From positions 4,045,199 to 4,109,198 of the forward strand of contig CP000875.1 of the NCBI GenBank assembly GCA_000018565.1: a stretch of 64,000 bases of DNA, in the 5' to 3' direction. The position numbers and the translations under genes were made by a program. The stretch's first letter is position 1. Every line of letters starts with the position of its first letter. Below the pieces are notes generated by a model. That model was not told the DNA's origin and did not search any database. It saw only the letters and a program-made list of their open reading frames with translations. Positions 25,838 to 35,313 of this stretch are shown in pieces. The DNA is from Herpetosiphon aurantiacus DSM 785 (lineage in GTDB: Bacteria; Chloroflexota; Chloroflexia; Chloroflexales; Herpetosiphonaceae).

Positions 25838-26026
25838 GGGAACGGCCCTCACACAAACAAAGAGTATGGTCTGTCGGTTTTCTAGGTTTGTCAAGAAGTT
25901 GGCAATGTTCACGTATCGACTTATACCAAGCCTATAGTATACTTAACCCACTACGTTTTGCGAATACCCTAGCCGCATTGCTGTCCAACGTTGCCTAACC
26001 ACGCTAGCCTATCTATGGTGAGAGTT

Positions 26027-28408
26027 ATGCACTGGCGCTCGTTTATTCCACGGACACTAGCCGATTCCCAATCTCGTCAACAGTTATTGATTGTCATGCT
26101 CAAAAGCGTTGTTTGGATCTTTACTCCCGTCCAAGTTATCTTGAGTTTTACCTTGACAACCACAAGCTGGCCACGCCTGTTGTTGCTGGCGATTGTCAAC
26201 CTGCTTTGTGCTGGAATCTGGCTCTTAATCAAACGCAATAAGCTGGATCTGGCGGGCAAGCTGTTTGTTGGGTTGTTTTGGTTGTTATTTACGGGTTTGA
26301 TGCTGAGCACTGGTGGCATTAGCTCGCCTTCGATTATTGCCTACTTTTTCGTCATTTTTACCGCCAGCTTTTTGTTGGGAGAACTGGCAAGTGTGATTAT
26401 CGGCTGTCTGAGTTTAGCGGCAACCTTTGTAGCCGTGCTCCTTGAGCTGAATCAGCTTTTGCCCGCCTCGGTGATTGTTTATACCCCCGTTTCGCGTTGG
26501 CTCAGTTACAGCTTTTATCTTGGCATTATGCTGATATTTCAGATGGTCAGTGGGCGCTTGGTCTATAAGGCCATGCAAAAAGCCCAAGCCGAGTTACACG
26601 AACGCCAACGCATCGAAGCTGAATTACGCCATTCTGAAGCCCAATATCGTCTTTTGTTCGATACTATTCCAATTGGCATTGGCATGGCTAAACTCGATGG
26701 TACAGTCATCGCCATCAACCCAGCTGGCAGCCAAATGATGGGCTATAGCCATGCCGAATTGATGCAAATCAAACTCGAACAGTTATATGCCAATCCCGAT
26801 CAACGGGCTAGTTTAATTCAGCAAGCCCAGCAAACTGGCAAGATTCGCGACCGCGAGATGGCTTTCCGGCGCAACGATGGCCAATTGGTTTGGGCGTTGG
26901 TCAATCTTGATCTTGGGTTAATTAATGGTGAGGCGGTGACGATTGCCACGCTGCGCGATAACACCACTCAACGCGCAGCAGAACAAGCCTTGCGCACCAA
27001 CGAAGCTCGTTTTCGGGCAATCTTTGAGCATGCAGCAATCGGAATTGTCTTAATTGATAATAATGGTGTGGTCTTTAGCGCCAACCCAACTGCTTGTATG
27101 TTGCTTAATTTCAGTGAACATGAATTGCAACAACAAGCCTTTGTTAATTTCACCCATCCCGATGATCGCCAATTTGAAATGAGCTTAAATCAAGAACTTC
27201 GCGCCGGATTATGTGATTCGTATCAAATTGAGCAGCGCTTTATTCGCTCTGATGGTGGGATTGTTTGGGGCCGTTTGTGTGCCTCATTAGTCCAAGATGC
27301 TGCTGATCAACCTTTATTTATGATTGCGATGATTGAAGATCTTAGCTCGTATAAAGATACCCAGGCCCAACTTGACTTGCAAATGCAAACTCTGACAGCG
27401 CTCTACTACAGCTCACAACGCCTAACAACCAAACTCAAAGTCGAGGAATTGGCCCGCGATGGGGCCGATAGTTGTGTTAGCATTTTTGGCGCACAACGGG
27501 CTTGGCTCACGCTCAATCAGGCTGATCAGCTTAACTATCACGAACATAACCTAGAACAACCCTTGCCCAGTGTTCACATTGAGATTGAATCGACTCAACC
27601 CATCACCCGCGATGGCCCAACTCGAACCATGGCCTTTCCGTTGGTCAGCCATAATCACACCTTTGGGATGCTCAATTTGCAGAGCAATCAGGCTGATTTC
27701 TTTCAAGCTGAGCGCAACGATATGCTACAAACCTATGCCAGTCAGGTCGCCGCCGCCTTGGATAACGCGCTCATGTTCCAACATTTGCAACAAATCAACC
27801 GTGAAGTTACCAGCGCCTACGATATGACGATTGAGGGTTGGTCTCGCGCCTTAGATTTGCGTGATCACGAGACTGAAGGCCATACCCAACGTGTTACCTG
27901 GATGACTGAACGGCTGGCCGCCGCAATGGGCCAATTTAGCGCCGAAGAGTTGATCCATGTGCGACGAGGCGCTTTGCTCCACGATATTGGAAAAATGGGT
28001 GTGCCCGATGCCATCTTGCACAAGCCTGGGCCGCTCAACGATGAAGAATGGGTGATTATGCGGCGGCATCCGGTCTATGCGTATCAACTGCTTGCGCCAA
28101 TTGGCTACTTGCAAGGCTCGCTGGATATTCCGCATTATCATCATGAACGCTGGGATGGGGGCGGCTATCCCAAAGGCTTGCAGGCCGAAGAAATTCCTTT
28201 GGCGGCGCGAGTATTTGCCGTAGTTGATGTATGGGATGCCTTGCGTTCTGATCGACCATATCGCAAAGGTTGGTCAGATCAGCGGATTATGGACTATTTG
28301 GCGGGTGAGGCGGGCAAGCATTTTGATCCATTAGTCGTTGAAGTATTTTTGCAATTGCTCATGACCATGAGCATTGCCGAGGTGCGTAATCCAGTTAATG
28401 AAGCCTAA
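26027..28408 (+). CDS. Membrane PAS-PAS-GAF-HD-GYP protein, probable c-di-GMP phosphodiesterase
   Basis: 793 residues from the ATG at 26027 (GGTGAGAG directly upstream; an ATG at 26015 is possible). Residues 20-175 form five or six transmembrane helices (MASE-like sensor), then a short coiled coil (185-205). Two PAS domains follow (about 205-320 and 325-445), the first with RDNTTQRAAEQAL at its end. A GAF domain covers about 455-600. The C-terminal HD-GYP domain is intact: HDHETEGHTQRV, LLHDIGKMGVPDAILHKPGPL, IMRRHPVYAY and HHERWDGGGYPKGL. Such domains hydrolyse cyclic di-GMP and so favour motility over surface growth. The gene is followed by R1 DNA interrupted by an IS element. Confidence 0.93.
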   Translation: MHWRSFIPRTLADSQSRQQLLIVMLKSVVWIFTPVQVILSFTLTTTSWPRLLLLAIVNLLCAGIWLLIKRNKLDLAGKLFVGLFWLLFTGLMLSTGGISSPSIIAYFFVIFTASFLLGELASVIIGCLSLAATFVAVLLELNQLLPASVIVYTPVSRWLSYSFYLGIMLIFQMVSGRLVYKAMQKAQAELHERQRIEAELRHSEAQYRLLFDTIPIGIGMAKLDGTVIAINPAGSQMMGYSHAELMQIKLEQLYANPDQRASLIQQAQQTGKIRDREMAFRRNDGQLVWALVNLDLGLINGEAVTIATLRDNTTQRAAEQALRTNEARFRAIFEHAAIGIVLIDNNGVVFSANPTACMLLNFSEHELQQQAFVNFTHPDDRQFEMSLNQELRAGLCDSYQIEQRFIRSDGGIVWGRLCASLVQDAADQPLFMIAMIEDLSSYKDTQAQLDLQMQTLTALYYSSQRLTTKLKVEELARDGADSCVSIFGAQRAWLTLNQADQLNYHEHNLEQPLPSVHIEIESTQPITRDGPTRTMAFPLVSHNHTFGMLNLQSNQADFFQAERNDMLQTYASQVAAALDNALMFQHLQQINREVTSAYDMTIEGWSRALDLRDHETEGHTQRVTWMTERLAAAMGQFSAEELIHVRRGALLHDIGKMGVPDAILHKPGPLNDEEWVIMRRHPVYAYQLLAPIGYLQGSLDIPHYHHERWDGGGYPKGLQAEEIPLAARVFAVVDVWDALRSDRPYRKGWSDQRIMDYLAGEAGKHFDPLVVEVFLQLLMTMSIAEVRNPVNEA

Positions 28409-29937: not shown

Positions 29938-31482
29938 TTAGCCTAAGGCTTCGAGCAAGAGTGCCGCTTCGTCAGCGCTAATCTTGCCACTTTGCACCAT
30001 CTTCAAAATTGCCAAGCGTTCTTGGGTTTTATCGACGGCTGGCGTTTCGGCTGGGGCTGCGGTGGCAGCTTGGGCTGCGGCAGCTTGCTCTGGCGAAATC
30101 CGCACCGTATCGCCAGTGTAGGCCACATGTTGGCTTGATGAAGAGCCATCATCTTCGCTAATCGACACCCGATGCGGGGCGTTTGGTGCTTGAGGCGCAT
30201 GCGGTGCGGCTGGCGGCGCTGGTGGGGCTGGCGGGCGGGGCGCATTTGGGTTAGCAATATTTTTTTCGATATTGCCCAAGGCTTGGCCAATTGCTTCGTA
30301 AGCACGGCTAATGCCTTCATCAGCAGCCCGCTTGGCTTGCTCTTTCAAGCGCTCGATTCGCTCAGGATCAAAGCGATATTCGCGTTCGTTGATCCGCACG
30401 CTCATGCGTTCGGCGGCTTTGGCAGCACGTTCGGCGGCGCGTTCAGTGGCTTGGCGAGCACGTTCAGCGGTACGTTCGCCCTTGCCATCACGCCAATCGC
30501 GGCTCATTTCACGGAATTGAGCGGCAATATCGCGGCCCATCGAGGCTAAATCATCGGTGAAATCGCGAATAGCGCGGTTAAAATCATCGTTATTCCAATT
30601 CCAGTTGGTGTTCCAGCTTGTGCCACCAACACTCTTGGAGTGGCTATGGCTAGCAGCTCCGCCCCGAATGCTCAAATCGCCTTGCACATTCAATTCTAAG
30701 CGAGCTGTACCCGTACCCCAAGTCAGGCTAATCGAGCCAGGCTCACGATCGCCCATGCCTGAGACATCGCCTTGGACAAAACCATTGACGCTCAAATTAG
30801 CATCATCGGCAACTTCTAACACAACATCGCCATTGGCACTAGCACGATAGACTTGCTCAGGTAGCCAATTGATGCCCAATTTCAAATCGCCATCAACATG
30901 GATTGGCGCAAGGCTCTTGATCGCGCCACGCAACGTAGCATCACCACTGACGCGGGTAATCGCTACATCGCCAAACAGATCGCTTGCGCTCAAATCGCCA
31001 TTCACATTGATAATCGTCAAATTGTGGGCTTGGCTAATTTTGGCATCGCCATTGACATTTTTAATCACCACAGTATCAGTGTTCTCATAGATTTTGAGAT
31101 CACCATCAATGTTGGCAAGGCTAAGTTTGGCGCTTTTAGTAAAGCTAGCATCGCCGTGCACCGAATCACTTTCAAAGGTTTGCACATCACGGGCGCTAAT
31201 ATCGCCTTCAATTTGGCGGGTATGCACAGCGCTCAAACCAGTCAGATCAACATCGCCTTGAACCACATCAATGGTTAAAACTGCGCCATGGGGCAAGCGT
31301 AATTCCAAATCATCGGAGCAACGCTCGATTGAGAGATGGCCTTCTTGGGCGCGAAAACTAATTTCATCTTCATCAACATCAAACCAAGCTTCGGGCAAAT
31401 CGTGGGCAATTACCCGCAAACTACCTTCACAAATGCGGACCGCTACGGTTGGATTCATACCGACATTAATTCGTTGTTGCAT
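29938..31482 (-). CDS. DUF4097-type beta-solenoid protein with C-terminal SHOCT-like helical hairpin
   Basis: 514 residues. Residues about 55-270 hold some twelve repeats of about 20 residues, each with a turn of the type (V/I)xGD, for example VQGDVDL, IEGDISA, VNGDLSA, VDGDLKL and VQGDLSI, which predicts a right-handed beta-solenoid (DUF4097). Residues 320-400 are a charged Arg/Glu/Ala-rich helix (ERTAERARQATERAAERAAK), then a Pro/Ala linker (APRPPAPPAPPAAPHAPQAP). The last 25 residues, ERLAILKMVQSGKISADEAA, match the hairpin found in both neighbouring genes. Relatives (YvlB, LiaX) belong to envelope-stress modules. Last gene of a three-gene unit, 12 bp after the previous one. Function here is inferred. 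Confidence 0.82.
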   Translation of the reverse strand: MQQRINVGMNPTVAVRICEGSLRVIAHDLPEAWFDVDEDEISFRAQEGHLSIERCSDDLELRLPHGAVLTIDVVQGDVDLTGLSAVHTRQIEGDISARDVQTFESDSVHGDASFTKSAKLSLANIDGDLKIYENTDTVVIKNVNGDAKISQAHNLTIINVNGDLSASDLFGDVAITRVSGDATLRGAIKSLAPIHVDGDLKLGINWLPEQVYRASANGDVVLEVADDANLSVNGFVQGDVSGMGDREPGSISLTWGTGTARLELNVQGDLSIRGGAASHSHSKSVGGTSWNTNWNWNNDDFNRAIRDFTDDLASMGRDIAAQFREMSRDWRDGKGERTAERARQATERAAERAAKAAERMSVRINEREYRFDPERIERLKEQAKRAADEGISRAYEAIGQALGNIEKNIANPNAPRPPAPPAPPAAPHAPQAPNAPHRVSISEDDGSSSSQHVAYTGDTVRISPEQAAAAQAATAAPAETPAVDKTQERLAILKMVQSGKISADEAALLLEALG

Positions 31483-31494
31483 CGTCCAGACTCC

Positions 31495-31857
31495 TTATTC
31501 AACCACAATTTCAATTCGTTCGCCGTCTTCCAGATCTTCCATATCGACAATTTTGCCAGTCATGCCGCCGCGAATTGCCTCAAGCATTTCATCGAAGTTC
31601 AGGGTTGTATGCTTGTTGGAGGCAAAGCGAGCGCCGAGTTTCAAACCAATGCTAATCAAGCCAACTGGAATATTGACATTGATTTTGTGATGGTTGGATT
31701 TCAAATCGGTGACCCGAATGCGTACCCACTGGGCACGCGGCGGGCGCGAAACTCGATTGTTTGGCTCCATCACGCCAAGCAATCGTGCCCCTTCTTCGGC
31801 AGTCAACTGGCCATTTTCAATCAGGCGCAAAATGCGCATGCGTTCTTCGGTTGCCAT
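31495..31857 (-). CDS. SHOCT-like hairpin protein of the DUF4097 module
   Basis: 120 residues from the ATG at 31857 with a strong GGGAGGT site. Residues 1-28 are the helical hairpin MATEERMRILRLIENGQLTA followed by EEGARLLG, the same motif as at the C termini of both neighbours. A positively charged segment WVRIRVTDLKSNHHKINVNIP follows, with a possible amphipathic stretch VGLISIGLKLGARF, then an acidic C-terminal part ending in beta structure (MEDLEDGERIEIVVE). This matches the small YvlB-like N-terminal unit found with DUF2089 and DUF4097 proteins. Probably binds its neighbours through the hairpins. It lies between them with 13- and 12-bp gaps. Confidence 0.82.
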   Translation of the reverse strand: MATEERMRILRLIENGQLTAEEGARLLGVMEPNNRVSRPPRAQWVRIRVTDLKSNHHKINVNIPVGLISIGLKLGARFASNKHTTLNFDEMLEAIRGGMTGKIVDMEDLEDGERIEIVVE

Positions 31858-31870
31858 TTGAAATACCTCC

Positions 31871-32227
31871 CTAGCCTTGTAACAGTTTGAGCGCTTCTTC
31901 AGCACTCAGTTCGCCTGTTTCAAGTTGACGCAACACCTCGCGCGAATCAGGCCGCGTGATTGAAGGCGGTGCACCTAAAGCGGCGGCAATTTCGTCCATA
32001 CGCATACGAGCAGTGGTGTATGAGACACTCAACGAACTCGCAACTTGGTTGACATTGCCTCGATGTTGTGCCAAGAGTTCCACAAAGCTCAGTTGCTCGC
32101 GGGTCAAACGACCCAAGCGTCCTAGGGTAAATTGGCCTTCAATCGCTGTGTTGCAAATTGCACATTCCAAACGGGTACTGGTTAATTCGCCCGAACAAAC
32201 CGGGCACTGAGTCAAGATAGGATTCAT
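31871..32227 (-). CDS. DUF2089 family putative transcription regulator
   Basis: 118 residues from the ATG at 32227 with GAGGT upstream. The N terminus is a zinc ribbon of the type CPVCSGEL...CAICNT. Then comes a sigma-like helix-turn-helix segment, LTREQLSFVELLAQHRGNVN and QVASSLSVSYTTARMRMDEI, that should bind DNA. The last 25 residues, REVLRQLETGELSAEEALKL, form the SHOCT-like hairpin shared with the two downstream proteins. DUF2089 proteins are thought to regulate the genes next to them. Here the promoter just upstream has direct and inverted repeats, so autoregulation is likely. First gene of the unit. Confidence 0.85.
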   Translation of the reverse strand: MNPILTQCPVCSGELTSTRLECAICNTAIEGQFTLGRLGRLTREQLSFVELLAQHRGNVNQVASSLSVSYTTARMRMDEIAAALGAPPSITRPDSREVLRQLETGELSAEEALKLLQG

Positions 32228-32262: not shown

Positions 32263-32316
32263 AGTGTAACCTAAGTTGATAATAAATGTCAATCTAAGTT
32301 ATATTAATTTTAGATT
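32263..32316 (-). promoter_or_regulatory. Promoter of the DUF2089 operon with repeated operator-like sites
   Basis: On the minus strand: -35 TTGACA (32292-32287), 18-bp spacer, -10 TACACT (32268-32263). The heptamer CTAAGTT occurs at 32271-32277 and 32294-32300, 23 bp apart, and AATCTAA (32291-32297) is repeated inverted as TTAGATT (32310-32316). These are candidate sites for the DUF2089 protein. The rest of the 302-bp gap up to the dinG promoter shows nothing clear. Confidence 0.6.
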
Positions 32317-32529: not shown

Positions 32530-35313
32530 GTGGAACCGATATATATCGCCTTGGATTTGGAAACAACTGGCTTAGAACCAGGGCGCGATGAGATTATTGA
32601 AGTTGGGGCAGTTAAATTTCGAGGCAATGAGGTTCTCGAAACCTACCAAACCTTGGTCAAACCCAAACAGGTGCTGCCGATTAAAATCGCCCGTTTAACA
32701 GGCATCGATGCCCATGAATTGACCACGGCTCCTACATTTAATAGTATTGGTGGCCAATTAGCCAAATTTCTCAAAAGCTACCCCATTATTGGCCATTCGG
32801 TCGATAACGATTTGCGCTTTTTGCAACAACAAGGGCTAAAAGTTACCCAGCCGCATTACGATACCTTTGATCTGGCGACGCTGTTGATTCCCCAATTGCC
32901 CAATTACTCGCTTTCAACGATTGCCGAACATTTGCAAATTCAACACCCTGATGCCCACCGCGCCTTGGCCGATGCCGAGGCCAGTCGCTTGGTGTTTAGC
33001 GCATTGCTCGATAAATTAGCCGAATTATCGGCTGCCGAATTGCATAGCATCGCTCAAACCACCCAAAAATTGCAGTGGCCGCTGGCCAAACTATTTGGCG
33101 AAATTGCCAAACGCCGCGTGCAAACGCTCTGGCAAGCGCCGATCGAATTTCAACCGAAACCACTGGTGCGCCCGGTGGCCCTCGAACCAACCGGCAATCA
33201 GCAAGAACTCGATGCCCAAGCAATTGGCGCGATGTTTGGCGCAGATGGTGGGTTTAGCCGCATGTTCCCAGGCTATGAGCCACGTCAGCCCCAAATTGAG
33301 ATGACCGAGGCAATCGCCGAAGCACTCAATCAAGGCGATACCTTGATGATCGAAGCGCCAACTGGCACTGGCAAAAGTTTGGCTTACCTCGTGCCCGCTG
33401 CTCAATGGGCACGCCAGCGCGGCGAACGAGTGGTCATCTCAACCAACACGATCAATCTCCAAGATCAGCTTTGCTCCAAAGATATTCCTACCGTGCAAGC
33501 GTTGTTGGCCGAGCAACCCGACCAATGGCCCGCTTTGCGAGCGGTGCAACTCAAAGGCCGCAGCAATTACCTATGTTTGAAGCGCTATGAATCCTTTCGT
33601 GCCCACCCCGACCACAACGAAGATCAGACCCGTGGGTTGTTGAAGCTCCAACTTTGGCTGCCCTCGACCAACAGCGGCGACCGCGCTGAATTGATGTTGA
33701 TTCAAGGCGAGCAGCAAGTTTGGAACAATGTTAATGTTGATCCCGACCAATGTTTGCGCCAACGCTGCTCGCTCTACAACGAATGTTTCTTCTTCAAAGC
33801 CCGCGCTGAAGCTGAAAATGCCCATATCGTGGTGGCGAACCATGCCTTGTTGATGTCGGATGTCAAATCGCCTGGGATTTTGCCACGCTACGATCATTTG
33901 ATCATCGACGAAGCGCATAATCTCGAAGATGTGGCGACTGATCAGTTGGGCTTTACGATTTCACAACATAGCCTAACTGGTTTGCTCAATGATATGCATA
34001 GCGCTGGCGGTGTGCGTTTGGCGGGTGGCGTGCTCAACGAATGGAGCCAAATCTTCCGTTTGAGCACCGTTGATCATAAAGAGCAGCGCAAACTCGAAGA
34101 TCTCAGCGCCGATTTGCGACCAAATGTTGATAAAGCCCGCGAAGCGGCCCAGCAATTATTCAGCATTTTCAACGATATTATGGCCAAAGATCGCAGTGTG
34201 ACCCAATACGATCCCCAATTGCGGATCACCAGCAAAGTGCGTCGCCACACCGAATGGACTCAAGTTGAGCAAACATGGGAAAACTTGAGCATCAATTTGC
34301 GCAAGCTGGGCGATGGCTTTGGCAAGCTCCAAGCAATTTTGGATAATCTCGAAGGCCGCGATATCAATGGCTACGATGATTTGGTGATGCGGGTCAAGGG
34401 TATGGTCAATGCTTGCACTGAATTACAACGCCAATTTGATGTGGTAATTTATGGCAATGAAGAAACCGTCGCATGGCTGACTGCCGATCAACGTCGCCGC
34501 GAATTGTTGGTGCAGGCTGCGCCAATTCATGTTGGGCCATTGCTCACTGAAGATTTATGGCTGAAAAAACGCGCCAGCATCTTGGTTTCGGCGACGCTTT
34601 CGGTCAGCAACAGCTTCGATTACCCCAAACAGCGCTTGGGCTTGGACGAAGCCACGACGATGCAACTCGATTCGCCCTTCGATTACAGCAAATCAACCTT
34701 AATCTATTTGCCAACCGATATGCCCGAACCCAACGAGCGCAATTATCAACGGGCCATGGAAGATGCCCTGATCAATTTATGCAAAGCGACTGGCGGGCGC
34801 ACTTTGGCACTGTTTACCGCCAATGCCTCGCTGAAACAAACCTATCATGGCATTAGCGAAAGCCTTGAGCAAGCCGATATTTCGACCTTGGCCCAAGGCA
34901 TGGATGGCTCACGCCGCTCGTTGATCCAGCGCTTCAAATCTGACCCACGCACGGTTTTGTTGGGCACAGCCTCGTTTTGGGAAGGTGTTGATGTGGTTGG
35001 CGATGCTTTGAGCGTACTGGTGATTACCAAATTGCCCTTTAGCGTGCCAAATGATCCGGTGTTTTCGGCGCGATCTGAGGGCTTTGATGATGCTTTTGCT
35101 GAATATTCAGTGCCGCAGGCAATTTTGCGTTTCAAGCAAGGCTTTGGCCGCTTGATTCGCTCCAAAGATGATCGCGGGATTGTGGTGGTGCTTGATCGGC
35201 GCTTGCTTAGCAAAAATTATGGGCGGCAATTCCTCGAATCATTGCCCGATTGCACGATTCAACGCAAGCCGCTCGCCGAATTGGCAACAACGGCTGCTCG
35301 TTGGTTGGTTTAA
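32530..35313 (+). CDS. DinG-type helicase with N-terminal 3'-5' exonuclease domain
   Basis: 927 residues starting with GTG at 32530, GAGGAG 5 bp upstream. Residues 1-170 are a DEDD exonuclease (DnaQ-like): ALDLETTGLEPGRDEIIEVG, IGHSVDNDLRFL and HRALADAEA. The helicase follows: motif I EAPTGTGKSLAYLVPAA (about 277-293), a Cys-containing stretch between motifs I and II (LCLKRYES, CLRQRCSLYNECFFF) that probably holds a 4Fe-4S cluster as in XPD/DinG, motif II LIIDEAHNLED, motif VI QGFGRLIRSKDDRG. The family unwinds forked and R-loop DNA after damage. The same fusion is known in Firmicutes DinG. It stands alone with its own promoter. Confidence 0.94.
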   Translation: MEPIYIALDLETTGLEPGRDEIIEVGAVKFRGNEVLETYQTLVKPKQVLPIKIARLTGIDAHELTTAPTFNSIGGQLAKFLKSYPIIGHSVDNDLRFLQQQGLKVTQPHYDTFDLATLLIPQLPNYSLSTIAEHLQIQHPDAHRALADAEASRLVFSALLDKLAELSAAELHSIAQTTQKLQWPLAKLFGEIAKRRVQTLWQAPIEFQPKPLVRPVALEPTGNQQELDAQAIGAMFGADGGFSRMFPGYEPRQPQIEMTEAIAEALNQGDTLMIEAPTGTGKSLAYLVPAAQWARQRGERVVISTNTINLQDQLCSKDIPTVQALLAEQPDQWPALRAVQLKGRSNYLCLKRYESFRAHPDHNEDQTRGLLKLQLWLPSTNSGDRAELMLIQGEQQVWNNVNVDPDQCLRQRCSLYNECFFFKARAEAENAHIVVANHALLMSDVKSPGILPRYDHLIIDEAHNLEDVATDQLGFTISQHSLTGLLNDMHSAGGVRLAGGVLNEWSQIFRLSTVDHKEQRKLEDLSADLRPNVDKAREAAQQLFSIFNDIMAKDRSVTQYDPQLRITSKVRRHTEWTQVEQTWENLSINLRKLGDGFGKLQAILDNLEGRDINGYDDLVMRVKGMVNACTELQRQFDVVIYGNEETVAWLTADQRRRELLVQAAPIHVGPLLTEDLWLKKRASILVSATLSVSNSFDYPKQRLGLDEATTMQLDSPFDYSKSTLIYLPTDMPEPNERNYQRAMEDALINLCKATGGRTLALFTANASLKQTYHGISESLEQADISTLAQGMDGSRRSLIQRFKSDPRTVLLGTASFWEGVDVVGDALSVLVITKLPFSVPNDPVFSARSEGFDDAFAEYSVPQAILRFKQGFGRLIRSKDDRGIVVVLDRRLLSKNYGRQFLESLPDCTIQRKPLAELATTAARWLV

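Follow-up and report, generated by a model that had tools for sequence, protein, structure and literature searches.

A PF22746-type helical hairpin shared by the three proteins of a DUF2089/Toastrack-like operon in Herpetosiphon aurantiacus

Three adjacent genes of Herpetosiphon aurantiacus DSM 785 encode a zinc-ribbon/helix-turn-helix protein, a small two-domain protein and a Toastrack-like protein, each of which carries one PF22746-type hairpin, and together they represent a widely conserved set. We consider it a reasonable model, with a rough probability of 45%, that the operon is a cytoplasmic, self-regulating sensor switch. The kind of system was already published in 2024 as DUF2089/Toastrack/SHOCT-like neighborhoods, and the Herpetosiphon operon is a variant of it. 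Set against the relevant sections of that publication, the additions made here are the small component, in which the hairpin precedes a C-terminal domain that we term Sc, the hydrophobic paralogue of that component, and the operon's soluble form with three genes.

Three genes and their shared hairpin

The window analyzed here is a stretch of 64,000 nucleotides (contig CP000875.1, positions 4,045,199 to 4,109,198). Open reading frame (ORF) analysis placed the three genes head to tail at 29938-32227 on the minus strand, in the order DUF2089 protein, small protein and Toastrack-like protein, with the following features:

31871-32227, minus strand: DUF2089-type regulator of 118 aa, ATG at 32227, consisting of zinc ribbon, helix-turn-helix and C-terminal hairpin (Pfam PF22747 and PF09862 over cut-off, PF22746 below it; AF2)
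32117-32206, minus strand: zinc ribbon, four cysteines retained (PF22747, 43.1 bits, residues 8-37)
31970-32107, minus strand: helix-turn-helix (PF09862, 47.5 bits, residues 41-86)
31880-31939, minus strand: hairpin 1, C-terminal, DUF2089 type (PF22746, residues 97-116, 22.2 bits, E 1e-4; genome scan; AF2 helices 95-104 and 109-117)
31495-31857, minus strand: small protein of 120 aa, N-terminal hairpin plus a C-terminal domain without a name (ORF, ribosome-binding-like GGGAGG, 58-sequence alignment)
31759-31848, minus strand: hairpin 2, N-terminal, small-protein type (PF22746, residues 4-33, 38.9 bits, E 5e-10; AF2 helices 2-14 and 20-30)
31498-31725, minus strand: C-terminal domain Sc, predicted beta-beta-alpha-alpha-beta-beta (AF2)
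29938-31482, minus strand: Toastrack-like protein of 514 aa, ATG at 31482 after AAGGAG, consisting of repeat core, charged helical region and C-terminal hairpin (local profile Tc)
30616-31434, minus strand: Toastrack-like repeat core (local profile Tc, residues 17-289)
30028-30597, minus strand: charged, probably helical, then Pro/Ala-rich region (sequence reading; weak apolipophorin-III similarity, E 0.014)
29944-30021, minus strand: hairpin 3, C-terminal, Toastrack type (PF22746, residues 488-513, 39.0 bits, E 5e-10)

For the small gene, the most likely start is the ATG at 31857, with GGGAGG ahead of it, rather than that of the longer GTG ORF; its best named matches, among the best 80 of 296 relatives, come from Herpetosiphon giganteus and H. 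geysericola (98%). In six relatives, the Toastrack gene is followed by a gene of opposite orientation. In the window, a DDE transposase gene (PF01609; 28551-29795, minus strand) sits between the operon and a PAS/GAF/HD-domain gene (25991-28408, plus strand); in five other Herpetosiphon regions (L043-L047) the operon and the PAS/GAF/HD-domain gene are adjacent and the transposase gene is absent. The divergent neighbor (32530-35313, plus strand) encodes an exonuclease-helicase (RNase_T plus Helicase_C_2).

The original prediction placed one and the same helical hairpin at the end of the first protein, the beginning of the second and the end of the third, and PF22746 (SHOCT-like_DUF2089-C) recovered it at each of these positions, with scores above the curated cut-off of 27 bits for the small and Toastrack-like proteins and below it for the DUF2089 protein. 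In a scan of the whole genome (6,785,430 bases, 3 contigs), only the three copies of the operon reached E < 0.5, the next match standing at 0.52. Because these sole matches at E < 0.5 sit within 2 kb of each other, chance similarity is an unreasonable explanation and was rejected, and the lack of another convincing genomic copy counts in favor of the switch. Pairwise identity among the three hairpins is 31-38% over 26 columns. The literal pattern proposed at first, opening with A-x-L, does not fit them; one that does is x-(V/I)-L-x-x-(L/I/V)-x-x-G-x-(L/I)-(S/T)-A-(D/E)-E-(A/G)-x-x-L-L. AF2 models, built from alignments of 65 sequences for the DUF2089 protein (mean pLDDT 83) and 58 for the small protein (whole-protein mean pLDDT 77), predict two helices at the hairpin of each.

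The first protein belongs to the DUF2089 family by its PF09862 and PF22747 matches, with CPVC and CAIC supplying the four cysteines. A Foldseek search with its model returned mostly helix-turn-helix regulators in the top rows, all at E >= 0.1. A search for solved structural relatives of the protein yielded none that was convincing. In 9 of 22 aligned DUF2089 proteins (L049, L050, L052, L055, L056, L057, L083, L084 and L094), DPxxG stands in place of the first CPxC pair, so that, judging from the alignment, their metal site in the zinc ribbon seems to be lost.

The hairpin had been thought to stand alone in the small protein; this needs amending, as a second conserved domain, Sc, is present too. 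Pfam searches over 58 small-protein members returned the hairpin alone, plus DUF5983_N in 3, and no family for Sc. A sequence search of the PDB found no convincing solved relatives: its two matches, at E 4e-6 and 4e-5, were to de novo TIM barrels; they owe their scores to the summing of four weak repeats, each with an i-Evalue >= 7, and were rejected. Fold comparisons gave a best Foldseek E of 0.14 and VIA Z <= 4.1.

For the third protein, the label DUF4097 needs correcting: Pfam DUF4097/Toastrack (PF13349) has no match in the window protein, while 7 of 17 aligned proteins of its type match at E 0.01, and the LiaX model (NCBIfam NF038025) matches the window protein with 32.2 bits (E 5e-8), below the 350 bits that it requires. 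The charged region between core and hairpin might bind membrane lipid, to judge from its weak apolipophorin-III similarity; an Apolipoprotein Pfam match occurs in 2 of the 17 aligned proteins.

Conservation, gene order and hairpin types in Chloroflexota

Across sampled Chloroflexota genomes, PF22746 gave a match at E 0.01 in 197 of 301, 144 of them over the curated cut-off (among the matches listed), and DUF2089 was present in 101 of 151; with these fractions, the hairpin/DUF2089 set is not universal, a point against the switch. Our census combined 60 regions chosen from PF22746 matches with 80 named loci in which the small protein has a relative, chosen as the best 80 of 296. After removal of 4 duplicates, the 140 regions were reduced to 136 distinct ones, to which the window was added, and all were annotated with four local profiles representing the DUF2089 body, the hairpin, Sc and the Toastrack core. 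In this set, whose census regions had been selected by a hairpin match or a small-protein relative, a C-terminal hairpin is present on 117 of 119 DUF2089 ORFs (120/122 before removal of duplicates) and an N-terminal hairpin on 199 of 200 Sc ORFs (204/205 with duplicates); among 116 Toastrack-type ORFs the hairpin is C-terminal in 107, N-terminal in 1 and missing in 8 (110/119 with duplicates). All three counts speak for the switch. The arrangement of the window recurs in 17 of 20 same-order regions, with all three genes present and each carrying the hairpin; of the remaining three, two have a hairpin-less third gene (one cut by a contig end) and one has the small gene only.

Twenty further regions were drawn from a DUF2089 search; they are high-scoring and new to the census, and some of their genomes also have PF22746 matches. 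The hairpin ends 19 of their 20 DUF2089 ORFs, and a Toastrack-type ORF is present in all 20 (hairpin detected in 19, one of them N-terminal). Because a hairpin-Sc gene occurs in only 9 of these 20 regions, the core of the system is DUF2089 plus Toastrack, with the small protein as a frequent third part. The two smaller genes, DUF2089-hairpin and hairpin-Sc, also directly adjoin each other in one Bacillota record (Niallia), again in line with the switch. The survey of gene order that had been named beforehand as a check thus bears out a three-hairpin layout that is widely conserved in the Chloroflexota regions.

The hairpins fall into types that follow the protein on which they sit. After 9 hairpins in other ORFs had been dropped, the nearest neighbor outside the own locus was of the same type for 412 of 438 hairpins. 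Identity between types is nearly equal within and between operons (e.g. 0.365 versus 0.363), the largest gap being 0.494 versus 0.469 for the small versus the 2-TM type. Taken together, these two results leave recent copying of hairpins between the genes unsupported. Among unique sequences, position 8 is acidic in 67% of the DUF2089 type and basic in 79% of the small-protein and 75% of the Toastrack type; position 9 is mostly charged in the DUF2089 type and Met in 76% and 89% of the other two. Because the window hairpins have R, R and K at position 8 (and Q, L and M at position 9), this phylum-wide charge contrast does not apply to them, which argues against the switch.

Covariation between hairpins was assessed by partial Mantel correlation on 90 loci reduced to 52 non-redundant ones, excluding the window, a test of low power. 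With shared ancestry removed, the DUF2089 hairpin showed no covariation with the other two in these loci (-0.06, p 0.84; 0.007, p 0.44), a result against the switch, and the small-protein and Toastrack hairpins gave a weak signal (0.22, p 0.012). Weak as it is, this test does not favor an exchange model for the DUF2089 hairpin. With separate types and a DUF2089 hairpin that does not covary, the original proposal divides: a shared module on proteins of DNA-binding, small and Toastrack-like type stands, and the exchange of partners among the hairpins is so far unsupported.

Promoter region and membrane context

Two features lie ahead of the DUF2089 gene:

32263-32292, minus strand: promoter-like site, TTGACA (32287-32292), 17 bp, TTACACT (32263-32269), conserved in six Herpetosiphon loci
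32291-32316, minus strand: inverted repeat AATCTA-N14-TAGATT overlapping the -35 box, a candidate operator, in all six Herpetosiphon loci compared

The promoter coordinates given originally are therefore correct. In the six loci, the 100 bases ahead of the start codon show a mean identity of 92% and the third codon positions of DUF2089 77%, from which it follows that the promoter region is constrained; the next 100 bases upstream have 29% identity ungapped, with the closest pair reaching 64%. The inverted repeat is absent from a family-level relative (L048). A regulon recognizable by the inverted-repeat pattern was rejected, as the genome holds a single exact copy, every other site having 2 mismatches; for TTGACANTTATTATCA, there is one exact genomic copy, and <=2 mismatches occur at 21 places versus 9 for a reversed control.

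On a broader scale, TTGACA-N16-18-TAnnnT lies ahead of DUF2089 in 47 of 110 non-redundant loci, as against 29 of 407 other ORFs, an excess that favors the switch and persists in each GC class (22/27 v 6/17, 16/22 v 11/48, 9/59 v 12/328). TTGA/TCAA half-sites 5-6 bases past the -35 TTGA occur in 18 of 46 such promoters versus 16 of 92 others (p 0.007). Since GC was partly matched and the controls are less AT-rich (GC 0.32 v 0.22), this enrichment is suggestive as a sign of an operator. For half-sites on the upstream side of the -35 box, enrichment failed to reach significance (p 0.07 and 0.06), which counts against the switch. Overall, the promoter data would fit autoregulation by the helix-turn-helix protein and fall short of proof.

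None of the three window proteins has a strong hydrophobic segment (maximum hydropathy 1.3), and the operon contains no membrane component of a PSP-like system; other parts of the genome contain two PspA genes, four PspC genes and one PF04020 gene. Among relatives, at least two hydrophobic segments, identified by hydropathy alone, separate hairpin and Sc in 52 of 199 hairpin-Sc ORFs (e.g. L146:6317-6985 and L162:2285-2932). Of 140 loci, 26 have a holin-like gene nearby, every one of them belonging to the 80 named loci, and in 18 of the 26 this gene lies <=400 bases from the last Sc gene; the one such gene tested is PF04020. The hydrophobic segments and the holin-like genes make up a membrane link in relatives that favors the switch. 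MFS transporter and GNAT genes are found in or near the operons of some relatives with the hydrophobic hairpin-Sc form. Holin-like, MFS and GNAT genes are all missing from the Herpetosiphon operon. Since the hydrophobic form does not occur among the same-order relatives, which weakens the membrane side of the switch, and the window proteins lack a strong segment, a membrane link in Herpetosiphon is one that we infer. Three proteins (L146:6317-6985, L165:5749-6411 and L174:6144-6947) carry two tandem hairpins ahead of hydrophobic segments and offer a natural construct for tests of hairpin-hairpin packing.

Published relatives, the proposed switch and its rivals

In the analysis of Ravi et al. 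2024 (PMC11237479), DUF2089 is divided into zinc ribbon, helix-turn-helix and SHOCT-like parts and assigned to a four-gene Toastrack context of diverse bacteria. Their Toastrack-DUF2089 neighborhood resembles the present one in its three-part DUF2089 and adjoining Toastrack genes, and also in having SHOCT-like domains at the N or C termini of globular domains, Toastrack included; its variants contain LiaI-LiaF-TM, B-box and PspC, and the relevant sections of that paper make no mention of the small hairpin-Sc protein. The classical SHOCT domain is likewise a module of ~30 residues and two helices on many unrelated proteins, mostly terminal, although it is a different Pfam family from the 'SHOCT-like' PF22746; one such domain was tested and, in that test, had no apparent role in oligomerization, which counts against the switch (Eberhardt et al. 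2013, PMC3581485). Beyond Ravi et al. 2024, our searches on DUF2089, on the SHOCT domain since 2014 and on Toastrack retrieved no apparent study of the three-gene set and no demonstration of a function for the widespread SHOCT-like hairpins.

Work on LiaX and on psp/Yvl connects the Toastrack proteins found in Firmicutes with membrane-active antimicrobials (PMC11601895, PMC12791056), and YvlD is assigned to holin-like superfamily IV (PMC12791056), the superfamily that PF04020 represents. Like the Herpetosiphon operon, YvlABCD of B. subtilis and LiaXYZ of enterococci include a Toastrack protein with a SHOCT-like part, and the holin-like genes near the 26 Chloroflexota loci above are of the superfamily IV type, like YvlD. 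They differ in that their hairpin is N-terminal, whereas that of the Herpetosiphon Toastrack protein is C-terminal; in being described as under sigma-W or LiaFSR control; and in the PspC and holin-like genes that this operon lacks. We take YvlB to be CAB15517.1 of the 2024 study, and we know of no DUF2089 regulator in either system. By gene neighborhood only, then, the operon may be linked to PSP-like envelope-stress systems; the connection to envelope stress in the original prediction survives insofar as published work ties such neighborhoods, by inference, to membrane stress.

In the switch that we propose, the DUF2089 protein would act at the promoter of its own operon, binding close to the -35 box. 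The hairpin of this protein would dock onto the other hairpin proteins, which could compete with DNA binding or tether the regulator. The Toastrack protein would read a membrane or envelope signal, directly in Herpetosiphon and through the hairpin-TM-Sc paralogue in other Chloroflexota, and this signal would alter docking and with it the output of the operon. A wider form of the idea, a signaling scaffold based on one docking hairpin and widespread in Chloroflexota, is conceivable and rather unlikely: each core product would carry one hairpin of a type fixed to its role, transcription would be set by the pairing of the DUF2089 regulator with these hairpins, and the small hairpin-Sc protein, a component without a name, would be soluble throughout the order of Herpetosiphon and have membrane-anchored paralogues in other parts of the phylum.

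The main rival to the switch, in our view unlikely, has each hairpin anchor its protein at the inner membrane surface or on one common membrane partner, so that the proteins are co-localized and exchange no partners. Ravi et al. 2024 propose just such inner-membrane-face anchoring for SHOCT-like domains (PMC11237479, section 27), and the 52 hairpins that precede hydrophobic segments, the lack of covariation of the DUF2089 hairpin and the Met at position 9 of the small-protein and Toastrack types, where DUF2089 types are mostly charged, agree with it. A DNA-binding protein anchored in this way would, however, need an extra step to reach DNA, DUF2089 hairpins are systematically unlike the others, and the Herpetosiphon operon encodes no membrane protein.

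Two further readings dispense with both docking within the set and anchoring. The hairpins may have in common a cytoplasmic binding partner from outside the operon (e.g. RNA polymerase, a protease or a chaperone), of which the three proteins would be independent clients. The occurrence of one hairpin family on unrelated domains would suit this arrangement, and weak matches to the small subunit of Exonuclease VII (E 0.07 for the window DUF2089 protein; E 2e-4, below cut-off, for L146) suggest that hairpins of this kind can serve as docking pieces for other proteins. We nevertheless hold an outside partner to be improbable, given the lack of a convincing hairpin elsewhere in the genome and a conserved set that favors partners within it. 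Least probable of all is neutral duplication of a domain within the operon, with three different and unrelated roles: a short domain is readily duplicated, and between-type identity is about the same within as between operons, yet the hairpins keep a near-constant position, recur in many genomes and are conserved type by type.

With three proteins, one hairpin each and one conserved promoter region, the operon is a compact test bed. It brings into view a family, DUF2089, that is seldom named in the literature searched, and it highlights a small conserved protein ending in a domain for which Pfam has no family. Paralogues of this protein look membrane-anchored and could connect a membrane signal to the regulator.
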